Shown in pieces: positions 42,856-47,211 of a stretch of 64,000 bases of DNA. Each line of letters opens with the position of its first letter. Position 1 is the first letter of the stretch. Below the pieces are notes generated by a model. That model worked only from the letters and a program-made list of their open reading frames with translations. It ran no database searches and was not told where the DNA came from. The stretch is from Candidatus Peribacteria bacterium. Lineage in GTDB: Bacteria; Patescibacteriota; Gracilibacteria; UBA1369; UBA12463. The DNA is taken from the NCBI GenBank assembly GCA_943354965.1, contig CALRDN010000006.1:1-64000 (forward strand), written 5' to 3'. Both the position numbers and the translations under genes were made by a program.

Positions 42856-43512
42856 ATGGAAAAAGCATTAAACAAAGGGACATCAGCAGAAGGAATCAGC
42901 CGCGCACCACGTTCGCTTCGTTCAACAGTCGTTGCGAGACTTCTCGCCGGCACCATGGCTCTTTCAGCAGCCGCCTTGGCAGCTTGCAGCAGCGATGAAA
43001 TCGTAAATCCTGAATTGGTAGGAGGATTCGGAGATAGCGGAGCAGATGGAATTAATTTATCAAACGATTCAACATCGACAGTAGGCGCTGCATCCGATAC
43101 AACAGCCACAACAGACGGAGGAGTGGACATAGCAGAAGACGCGACTACAGTAACAGCCGACGCATCGTCCGACACATCATCTGACGCATTAGCTAGCGAC
43201 ACTTCCAATACAGGAGCAGAAACAGCCAGCTCGACCGACGCATCAACTGGCTCAACCGCAGCCGATACGATCTCTACAACAGATACATCAACTCCAGTAG
43301 ACACCTCAAATAATGGTACCGATATTATCGCAAAAGCCGACACAACACCTAGTGGACCTAAGCAAATCTGCGAAGCGGCAAAGGCAAAGATGATCTCAGC
43401 ACTCAAGCCAGGAGCACCAGAGTGCACAGAAACAATCCCTGGCGTAGGAAAAATAGCCGGGAAGTTGGTTTGTGACGGAACAAACCTCGAAGCGAACTGT
43501 GTGATTAACTAA
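42856..43512 (+). CDS. Thr/Ser/Asp-rich lipoprotein with C-terminal cysteine domain
   Basis: A 218-residue predicted lipoprotein. An unusual 22-residue basic N-terminus precedes the hydrophobic segment; the lipobox is ALAAC with Cys44. Residues about 55-160 are a low-complexity, mucin-like run of Thr, Ser, Ala and Asp with no regular repeat. The last 50 residues form a small domain with four cysteines (QICEAAKAKM, PECTE, LVCDG, ANCVIN), likely two disulfides. It sits between manC and the PMI-like cupin under a near-consensus promoter and its own terminator, so it is probably abundant. Glycosylation of the Thr/Ser stalk is inference. No family recognised. Confidence 0.75.
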   Translation: MEKALNKGTSAEGISRAPRSLRSTVVARLLAGTMALSAAALAACSSDEIVNPELVGGFGDSGADGINLSNDSTSTVGAASDTTATTDGGVDIAEDATTVTADASSDTSSDALASDTSNTGAETASSTDASTGSTAADTISTTDTSTPVDTSNNGTDIIAKADTTPSGPKQICEAAKAKMISALKPGAPECTETIPGVGKIAGKLVCDGTNLEANCVIN

Positions 43513-43598: not shown

Positions 43599-44006
43599 AT
43601 GCAGGAGGTAATCATCAAGCCAAAACCATGGGGTCGTGAAGTGTGGTTTGCTCACACGCAGCACTATGCAGGGAAAATCCTAGAAGTGACAAAGGGACAC
43701 CGTCTCTCACTCCAAATCCATGATAAAAAAATGGAAACACAGTACCTCTACAAAGGAAAAGTGAAACTCTTTATCGGACAAGATCAAAACGGATTAAAAG
43801 AAGTTATCCTCAATCCTGGTGATAAAATCGACATTCCCCCGCATACTATTCATAGAATTGAGGCACTTGAAGATAGTGAAATTTTTGAAGTATCCACTCC
43901 TGAGCTTGACGATGTGATAAAACTCGCGGATGATTACGGCCGCACGGGAACTGGAAACAATGAAGCCGTAGATCAGTCCCTCCATGCACAACACCATACA
44001 ACTTAA
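43599..44006 (+). CDS. Cupin protein, mannose-6-phosphate isomerase (type II C-terminal domain) like
   Basis: A 135-residue single-domain cupin. The pattern KPWGREVWFAHTQHYAGKIL, the HRLSLQIHDKKMETQYLYKG metal-site strand, LNPGDKIDIPPHTIHRIEA and the DDYGRTG end match the isomerase domain that type II phosphomannose isomerase/GDP-mannose pyrophosphorylases carry fused behind ManC. Metal-binding His residues are present. It would interconvert fructose-6-phosphate and mannose-6-phosphate to feed the manC product upstream. The ATG directly abuts a terminator T run, and an AGGAGGT lies just inside the frame at 43603-43609, which is odd and leaves the true start slightly uncertain. Confidence 0.82.
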   Translation: MQEVIIKPKPWGREVWFAHTQHYAGKILEVTKGHRLSLQIHDKKMETQYLYKGKVKLFIGQDQNGLKEVILNPGDKIDIPPHTIHRIEALEDSEIFEVSTPELDDVIKLADDYGRTGTGNNEAVDQSLHAQHHTT

Positions 44007-44028
44007 TTCTTATTCTTTATCTTTCCGT

Positions 44029-47000
44029 ATGAAAAAAATACTTTCCTGGCAGCTCGTCGTTACGCTCGTCGTTGCCGTACTTCTTGGTTTTTTTGATCTC
44101 CCTAATACGATCCAAACAAGGATCTTTCCATGGACACCAAAAGCAATTCAAAATCAGAAGATTCCACTTGGTCTCGACCTTCAGGGAGGTTCACAGCTTG
44201 ATTACAAAATCGATCTCAGAAAAGTACCGGTTGCCGATCAGGCAGCTATCGTAAACGGTGTACAGGAAGTAATTGAGAAACGTGTAAACGGACTTGGTGT
44301 TTCGGAACCAAGCATCTACCTCTCAAAATTTGGAGATGAACAGCACATCATCGTAGAGCTCGCCGCCATCAAGGATCTTGAAGAGGCAAAAAACACCGTA
44401 GGAAAGACTATCCAGTTAGAATTCAAGGAGAAGAAAGATGCTCCGGATCCTGCAGAAAAAGAGAAACAGACACAATACGCCAAGGAAGTATTAGGAAAAG
44501 TAACAGCAGCAAACGCAAATTTTGAAATCATCGGACAAGAAGAAGAAAAATTAAATCCTGGAAAAGCCGTATACACAAAAAGCACTGATTTCTCTTTTGT
44601 ATCAGACCTTCCAGCGACCGTGAAGGATGCTGTAACAAAAATGAATCCAAATGAAATCAACAAAGATCTCGTCATGGTTAACGACGAATATGTATATGAT
44701 TCTTCCGGTCAGTTACAGAAATCTAATGGTGCCTATATATTGAAATTGGTTGAAAAAGGACAGGCCGTAAAGAATAAAAAAGAGGTAAACGTAGAGCATA
44801 TTCTCATTAGTTACAAAGACGCCGCCGACAAAAACGGAATCCAAGGAGTAACTCGTACAGAAGAAGAAGCCAAAAAACTTGCAAATGAATTGAAATCAAA
44901 AATCAAGACACAGGCAGACTTCGAGAAAATTGCTAAAGAGCAGTCCGACGACGCAGGATCAAAAGTAAACGGCGGAAAACTCGATAGTCCAGTAAACGAA
45001 TCCGCATCATACGTTCAAGAATTTAAAGATGCAGCGCTCAAACTCAACGCCGCAGGCGAAATGAGTGAACCTACAAAATCAGCATTTGGATTCCATATCA
45101 TTCGCGCCATTGATGTAAAAAATGATGCCAAAGAAGACCAGGTAAAACTTGAGAAGATCTTCATCTCACTCATGCCTGATCCGTGGAAAGAAACCGGGCT
45201 CACAGGAGAACAGTTCGCTCGAGCTGACGTCCAGGTAAATCCAATCGGAGAACCATACGTATCTATCAGCTTCAACGAAAAGGGTGCAAAACTATTCGAA
45301 GATATTACCGCTCGTAACGTACAAAAGCCAATAGCCATCTTCGTAGGAGGCACACTGATTTCCGCTCCAAACGTAAGTGAAAAAATCTCAGGAGGTACAG
45401 CGCAAATCTCGGGCTCATTCACATTCGATCAGGCCAAGACACTCGCAAGAGATCTCAATACAGGTGCTATTCCAGCTCCAATCACACTCGTAGGACAGCA
45501 CACTATCGGCTCAACGCTCGGCGCAGATGCACTTCAGAAAAGCATGAAGGCAGGTATCATCGGTCTTCTGCTTCTCGCGATTGCCATGATCCTCTATTAC
45601 CGTCTCCCTGGTTTAATTGCCGTGGTAGCACTTTCTATTTATACGATTCTCCTCCTCTTTCTCATCAAGAGCGCCCTACCAATTGCTGCCGCACTGCTTA
45701 TCTCATTGATTATATTCGGCATACTGACGTACAAAATTCTCAACAACAAAGACCCAGGATGGGAAAAACTTCTCTCCTTCCTCCTTGCGGTAGTAGTACT
45801 CATCTTCCTCACATCACTCCTCCAGTCTCCTATTACACTTACGCTCGCAGGTGTTGCTGGTGTTATTCTCTCAATCGGAATGGCTGTTGATGCCAACATC
45901 TTGATCTTTGAGCGCGTCAAGGAAGAGCTTGGAGACGGACATACACTTTCTGCGGCCATCGAAAACGGATTCGAACGTGCTTGGAGCTCTATCCGAGATT
46001 CAAACTTCTCATCACTTATTACGTGTGTCGTTCTCTTCTATTTTGGTAGCTCAATGATCCGAGGATTTGCCCTCAATCTCGCAGCAGGTATTTTGATCTC
46101 CATGTTCTCAGCCATCACACTTACTCGCACATTCCTCAGAGCAACAGCCAAGACGAAGATTGGACAGAACCTGAGCCTCTATGGCGTACGCAACCGAAAC
46201 AAGACACCATACAAAATCATCGAGAAGTCGAAATACATGTTCATCTTCTCAGGCACACTTATCGCCATAAGTCTTATTGGCACGGTTGTATTCGGTGTTA
46301 GACTTGGTCTCGACTTTACCGGAGGAACATTGATGACGGTAAAATTTGATAAGACCGTATCTGTCGAAGCAATCAAAGCCGAGTTTCCAGCTATTCAACA
46401 GCAGATCAATGGTTCATTGATGACGCCGGTAACCGCACCCGCCGCTAACGGAACTACACCGGTATCAGTACTGGATACTACGGTAGTTACTCCGGCAATA
46501 GGAGAAAAAATCGACCTCACAACCGCTCAGGTTATCTCGAAGGAAGGAAATGTATTCGAACTCAAGACGAAAAATCTCACAAACGCTCAGCACGACGTTT
46601 TCGTTAACGGATTGAAGAGTAAGTTTGGAACGATTGAAGAACTAAGTTATGTCTCCGTTGGTCCAACTATCGGCGATTCCATGAGACAGAAGGCACTCTT
46701 TGCCATCTTCCTCGCTTCATTCATGATCATCCTTTACCTCGCATTCTCCTTCCGAAAGGTTCCAAAGGAGGTAAGCTCATGGAGATTCGGTATTTGTGCC
46801 GTAGTCGCCCTCCTACATGATCTATTTATCACATTCGGTCTCTTTGTCTTCCTTGGATACTTCTTCGGAGTAGAAATTGATGCTCTCTTCATTACGGCTA
46901 TGTTGACCGTATTGGGCTTCTCCGTTCACGATACGATCGTCGTCTTTGATAGACTTCGAGAGCACCTCAACCGAGGAGAAAAAGGCACACTCGCAGAGAT

Positions 47001-47211
47001 TTCCAACCGATCTCTTACGGAGACAATGGCTCGATCAATCAATACATCCCTCTCTACATTGATCACGCTCAGCGCACTTCTCGTCTTCGGAAGCGAATCA
47101 ATCTTCTACTTCATCCTCGCACTCTTCGTTGGTATCATCATTGGTACCTACTCATCGATCGGTGTCGCCTCTGCTCTCCTCGTCTGGTGGCAGAAAAAGT
47201 CTCAGTCTTAA
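44029..47211 (+). CDS. secDF: SecDF fusion with parvulin-type PPIase domain inserted in SecD
   Basis: The accessory motor of the Sec translocon: SecD and SecF in one chain of 1060 residues, drawing proteins across the membrane using the proton gradient. SecD marks are IPLGLDLQGGSQLDY, GEPYVSISFNEKGAKLFEDI and GMAVDANILIFERVKEEL; SecF marks are GVRLGLDFTGGTLMTV, VGPTIGDSMRQKA and FSVHDTIVVFDRLREH. Inserted in the SecD periplasmic head (about 251-363) is a parvulin prolyl isomerase domain (VNVEHILISYKDA, EEEAKKLANELKSKI, AFGFHIIRAIDV), and about 150-243 resembles a second, degenerate one. SecD also has an extra membrane hairpin near residues 545-600. I start at the ATG at 44029, since an earlier in-frame ATG lies inside the cupin gene. 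Confidence 0.93.
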   Translation: MKKILSWQLVVTLVVAVLLGFFDLPNTIQTRIFPWTPKAIQNQKIPLGLDLQGGSQLDYKIDLRKVPVADQAAIVNGVQEVIEKRVNGLGVSEPSIYLSKFGDEQHIIVELAAIKDLEEAKNTVGKTIQLEFKEKKDAPDPAEKEKQTQYAKEVLGKVTAANANFEIIGQEEEKLNPGKAVYTKSTDFSFVSDLPATVKDAVTKMNPNEINKDLVMVNDEYVYDSSGQLQKSNGAYILKLVEKGQAVKNKKEVNVEHILISYKDAADKNGIQGVTRTEEEAKKLANELKSKIKTQADFEKIAKEQSDDAGSKVNGGKLDSPVNESASYVQEFKDAALKLNAAGEMSEPTKSAFGFHIIRAIDVKNDAKEDQVKLEKIFISLMPDPWKETGLTGEQFARADVQVNPIGEPYVSISFNEKGAKLFEDITARNVQKPIAIFVGGTLISAPNVSEKISGGTAQISGSFTFDQAKTLARDLNTGAIPAPITLVGQHTIGSTLGADALQKSMKAGIIGLLLLAIAMILYYRLPGLIAVVALSIYTILLLFLIKSALPIAAALLISLIIFGILTYKILNNKDPGWEKLLSFLLAVVVLIFLTSLLQSPITLTLAGVAGVILSIGMAVDANILIFERVKEELGDGHTLSAAIENGFERAWSSIRDSNFSSLITCVVLFYFGSSMIRGFALNLAAGILISMFSAITLTRTFLRATAKTKIGQNLSLYGVRNRNKTPYKIIEKSKYMFIFSGTLIAISLIGTVVFGVRLGLDFTGGTLMTVKFDKTVSVEAIKAEFPAIQQQINGSLMTPVTAPAANGTTPVSVLDTTVVTPAIGEKIDLTTAQVISKEGNVFELKTKNLTNAQHDVFVNGLKSKFGTIEELSYVSVGPTIGDSMRQKALFAIFLASFMIILYLAFSFRKVPKEVSSWRFGICAVVALLHDLFITFGLFVFLGYFFGVEIDALFITAMLTVLGFSVHDTIVVFDRLREHLNRGEKGTLAEISNRSLTETMARSINTSLSTLITLSALLVFGSESIFYFILALFVGIIIGTYSSIGVASALLVWWQKKSQS

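Follow-up and report, generated by a model that had tools for sequence, protein, structure and literature searches.

Does this locus encode an export motor with a foldase built into it? The SecDF pump draws proteins to the outside of the cell, and how an exported chain gets from the translocon to the foldases of the periplasm is still unsettled in the field. The window analysed here is a stretch of 64,000 nucleotides from a member of the Patescibacteria, which are tiny, mostly uncultured bacteria. It holds a gene that the initial annotation had read as a SecDF fusion with a parvulin prolyl isomerase domain, and a degenerate second copy of this domain, built into SecD.

Judged from its sequence, the open reading frame (Table 1) is a complete SecDF. 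P1 base and P1 head are present together with the membrane parts of both SecD and SecF, and the Pfam family SecD_SecF_C was matched twice in the protein. At residue 16, the point where most relatives start, lies an ATG (44029) that is probably the true start codon. Upon alignment to the SecDF of T. thermophilus (3AQP), D636, D983 and R1017 correspond to D340, D637 and R671, the proton-relay (motor) residues. All three were observed to be invariant across 18 SecDFs of the order. The closest named relatives are MAGs of Candidatus Peribacteria and Peregrinibacteria. Two genes upstream of SecDF lies a lipoprotein-like ORF (42856-43512, + strand) with an LAAC lipobox and a sequence rich in Ser, Thr, Asp and Ala.

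SecD contains an insert of ~230 residues between the P1 base and the P1 head. The alignment to 3AQP stops at residue 153 (T. thermophilus 121) and restarts at residue 388 (T. thermophilus 144); this gap places the insert at the P1 base/P1 head junction. About 28 residues occupy the same site in an insert-free SecD (L090).

Table 1. Features of the SecDF gene and of the parvulin insert, in window coordinates.
Feature	Position	Strand	Evidence
SecDF fusion gene	43984..47211	+	1075 codons, uninterrupted frame
SecD P1 base, N-terminal part (Pfam SecD_1st, residues 92-151)	44257..44436	+	E=9e-15
Copy A, degenerate parvulin, residues about 155-262	44446..44769	+	hhalign to copy B; Rotamase matches at the same place in relatives
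Copy B, parvulin PPIase domain, residues 263-382	44770..45129	+	Pfam, PDB sequence search, AlphaFold2 and Foldseek, conservation
Catalytic His272 (Pin1 His59 position)	44797..44799	+	H in 64/64 non-eroded SecDs
Asp323 (Pin1 Cys113 position; Asp in SurA)	44950..44952	+	D or E in 34/34 order sequences
Catalytic His371 (Pin1 His157 position)	45094..45096	+	H in 64/64 non-eroded SecDs
QVKLEKIFIS, residues 386-395, likely the decayed first strand of copy A, behind copy B	45139..45168	+	motif scan p=0.002
SecD P1 head (Pfam SecDF_P1_head, residues 403-498)	45190..45477	+	E=2.6e-26
SecD membrane part and SecF, with proton-relay residues D636, D983 and R1017	45490..47208	+	alignment to 3AQP

The second half of the insert (copy B) was matched in Pfam by Rotamase_3 (residues 252-378, E=2.5e-25) and Rotamase (residues 272-376, E=6.7e-19), with a Rotamase score of 69.1 bits that passes the curated cut-off of 21.7. 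A sequence search of the PDB returned SurA, PrsA and Pin1, SurA (1M5Y) being the best match. An AlphaFold2 model of residues 16-502 was built from four close sequences. Within it, copy B reached pLDDT values mostly of 74-91, and Foldseek matched it to the Pin1 PPIase domain with a probability of 1.00 and a target TM-score of 0.78-0.80; PrsA and SurA ranked behind Pin1. On the combined evidence of sequence comparison and predicted fold, residues 263-382 are a parvulin domain, in agreement with the initial annotation, and the nucleotides it had assigned to the complete domain (44779-45117) encode residues 266-378. Structure prediction supported the parvulin fold of copy B but left copy A and the P1 base without a confident model. 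The model outside copy B being mostly poor, the arrangement of the insert relative to SecD is unresolved. A model of the insert alone was discarded (mean pLDDT 43).

Alignment to Pin1 pairs the active-site positions H59, C113, L122, F134 and H157 with H272, D323, L333, F347 and H371. Copy B thus possesses both active-site histidines (H272 and H371) and the Cys/Asp residue (D323). Among 67 aligned SecDs, namely those with two or more parvulin copies, H272, G331, G369 and H371 do not vary in 64, and the remaining three have an eroded insert. Apart from these four invariant residues the insert drifts, and the domain overall shows lower conservation than either the P1 base or the P1 head. The Pin1 M130 position is occupied by Tyr343 in the window and by Tyr in 27 of the 34 order sequences. 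Outside the order, the Asp323 position is variable (D, E, C or G).

The first half of the insert (copy A) gave no Pfam match in residues 144-271, missing the Rotamase cut-off in the window protein. Its first strand, with the N-terminal histidine, is missing, and neither catalytic histidine is present. Yet comparison of the order-level profiles of copy A and copy B by hhalign yielded a probability of 94% (E 1.5e-7, score 44.5). In 60 column-shuffled runs the score was no higher than 15.1, and control comparisons with the P1 base, the P1 head and a SecF segment gave probabilities of at most 8.3%. The possibility that copy A is an unrelated domain was ruled out by the score of 44.5 as compared to the shuffled and same-protein controls. 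Weak Rotamase matches to the copy A region also occur within the order. Outside the class, both insert halves score as Rotamase within one SecD frame in 11 genomes, with the match to the copy A region usually starting past the histidine strand of the profile. By these profile comparisons copy A is homologous to copy B, and the degenerate second copy, formerly a reading by eye, is borne out. Certain SecDs of about 780-900 aa (L060, L061, L070, L072-L075) have an extra unit of roughly 65-70 residues between both parvulin copies, which is perhaps a third degenerate copy.

The SecD-parvulin fusion is old and widespread in the phylum and not unique to the window genome. Close relatives at 95, 87 and 74% identity have the same SecDF architecture, and whole-chain matches to the window SecDF cover most of the order. 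A Rotamase domain is carried by 87 of 145 sampled genomes of the class; in about 85 of these it resides in a frame of SecD length, and in 76-77 nowhere else. Note that these class counts were read from frame lengths, with several dozen frames confirmed as SecD. Phylum-wide, a parvulin in SecD was observed in about 36 of 240 sampled genomes, among them members of no fewer than eight families from outside the class (f74, f82, f93, f108, f120, f123, f129 and f136). The survey thus traces the insert through the order, the class sample and these further families. SecD in other families is insert-free and about 440-500 residues long (L090-L095). In families f17 and f30 (L058, L065 and L066) the insert is still in place in SecD and the parvulin motifs are gone, indicating that isomerase activity is dispensable in some lineages. 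No relatives were found on viral contigs; a SecDF on a phage-labelled faecal contig, used as an outside comparison, has 716 aa, in which the insert cannot fit. One genus relative rated 100% complete (G002) yielded no SecDF and no Rotamase domain, reflecting either an assembly gap or true loss.

The domain pair was also found outside SecDF. A 309-codon secreted protein (L002:1429-2358, - strand, on contig C1 of genome G000) consists of a signal peptide and both insert halves, and is 49% identical to SecDF residues 163-401. In a tree of the parvulin domain (94 columns, few forks resolved), SecD copies and free parvulins are mostly apart, and the L002 copy falls among the copies from SecDFs of the genus (SH-aLRT 93). 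This nesting suggests that the L002 protein was derived from SecDF, and it is likely a domain pair that escaped from the motor; the converse, that the free copy was the source of the insert, is disfavoured by the same grouping. No stand-alone copy of this type was detected in the three genus relatives that have SecDF. The window genome also encodes a cyclophilin (L097) whose N-terminus forms a membrane anchor. Together, L097 and L002 rule out that the insert is the sole extracytoplasmic isomerase of the genome. Family f8 has lipoprotein-like proteins (L041:1750-3168, L042, L043 and L044) with a P1 head and two parvulin copies and no membrane part, and G166 has an additional second copy adjoining its SecD.

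How the two copies are arranged was inferred from the position of the first strand, HILI. Single-parvulin SecDs (L087, L088 and L099) miss this strand before the domain and have it intact after the domain, from which we infer that copy A is a circular permutant, with copy B lodged between the final strand of copy A and the first one, now displaced. The first strand of copy A would then follow copy B, where the window protein has QVKLEKIFIS, with lysine in place of the HILI histidine. We consider this nested topology probable. A plain tandem of two copies, in which the HILI-like tail is part of SecD itself, cannot be dismissed and retains a fair claim to attention: the hhalign score was no higher when copy A was extended by the tail (386-395), and the tails of many SecDs from the order and class fail to score as a HILI strand. 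The plain tandem does not account, however, for the intact strand being only behind the domain in the single-copy SecDs, or for L086, in which both copies are present, copy B is complete and the segment behind it still reads SHILIK.

Strand order also varies among free parvulins. Roughly half of those examined have HILI after the domain, and the two strand orders are mutually exclusive. L106, L107, L109, L111, L112 and L115, with the histidine strand behind and not ahead of the domain, are apparent circular permutants of a kind that seems common in the phylum. Permuted parvulins turned up in none of the open-access papers searched.

Taken together, we judge it likely that the window encodes a working SecDF motor carrying a covalent foldase at the P1 base-to-head junction; no activity data exist, and catalysis is inferred. 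The P1 head would grip the chain as it leaves SecYEG. Copy B, its parvulin active site kept, would most likely isomerise prolyl bonds of the emerging chain, and copy A, having lost catalysis, would probably bind unfolded chain or hold and space copy B. Hand-over of the substrate and proton-driven pulling in the window protein are likewise inferences. In SurA, the first parvulin domain is inactive and is thought to bind unfolded chain or to position its partner. SurA binds the SecYEG-SecDF-YidC complex in E. coli, and AlphaFold models with T. thermophilus SecDF place both SurA parvulin domains on the P1 head (PMC9987972). In light of these models the SecD fusion constitutes Rosetta-stone evidence, and the most fitting interpretation of a tandem parvulin fused at the predicted SurA site is a covalent version of this partnership.

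The data suggest isomerase activity, with counterpoints in the Tyr at the Pin1 Met130 position, the variable Asp and the eroded f17 and f30 inserts. The prevalence of this Tyr in most of the order and the retention of an eroded insert by both families, along with the loss of catalysis in copy A, would also fit a non-catalytic holdase, with an isomerase pocket that is merely vestigial and two copies that serve to bind the emerging chain. We nevertheless regard a pure holdase as unlikely, because His272, His371, G331 and G369 are fixed in 64 SecDs even though the domain is less conserved than its P1 surroundings. At its location (T. thermophilus SecDF 121-144) the insert necessarily either travels with the head or restrains it, which would also suit a docking or regulatory role in steering the P1 head swing without substrate contact; conservation centred on residues of the substrate cleft makes this quite improbable. 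An assembly error, or two genes joined by chance, is practically excluded. No supporting point was found, and the survey recovered the same architecture in many independently assembled genomes, including other families of the phylum, so that the single-frame fusion proposed in the initial annotation stands. Returning to the covalent foldase, a more far-reaching version can be put forward only tentatively. It envisages a proton-powered foldase, with an active parvulin nested in a permuted dead one at the P1 hinge, in which the strokes of the SecDF head couple pulling and isomerisation and which is the cell's only parvulin in most parvulin-bearing members of the class.

SecDF and parvulin are known families. 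That their covalent fusion is undescribed, as had been supposed, is consistent with the open-access literature, in which none was found; subscription journals, preprints and architecture databases were mostly outside the scope of this search, and some resource may already list the fusion among its domain architectures. Its spread across the phylum, the probable position of the first strand of copy A behind copy B and the secreted L002 offshoot go beyond the earlier reading. E. coli has SurA and PpiD as separate polypeptides, and only in that form do they reach SecDF. A fusion at the predicted contact site supports the SurA-SecDF contact and offers a stable single-chain object for structure determination and assay. 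It also indicates how reduced cells can get by on a single parvulin that has become part of the export motor.

The window SecDF has the P1 base and head, membrane part, proton-relay residues and SecD-SecF order in common with T. thermophilus SecDF (3AQP) and E. coli SecD/SecF, but about 230 residues where the T. thermophilus protein has only about 20-40. Free patescibacterial parvulins (L103-L117) contain the same domain, about half of them with the permuted strand order proposed for copy A, but are unfused to SecD and separate mostly from the SecD copies in the domain tree. SurA (1M5Y) resembles the insert in having two parvulin domains, one active and one not. Whereas the window pair sits inside SecD, SurA exists free in the periplasm and has a chaperone domain of its own; Pfam detected no SurA_N-type domain in the window SecDF, which is therefore not a free chaperone in the style of SurA or PrsA. 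PrsA and PpiD, like the insert, have a parvulin domain at the translocon exit, and PpiD contacts the periplasmic part of SecD in E. coli (PMC9643414). However, both are separate membrane-anchored proteins, whereas the insert is covalently part of SecD.
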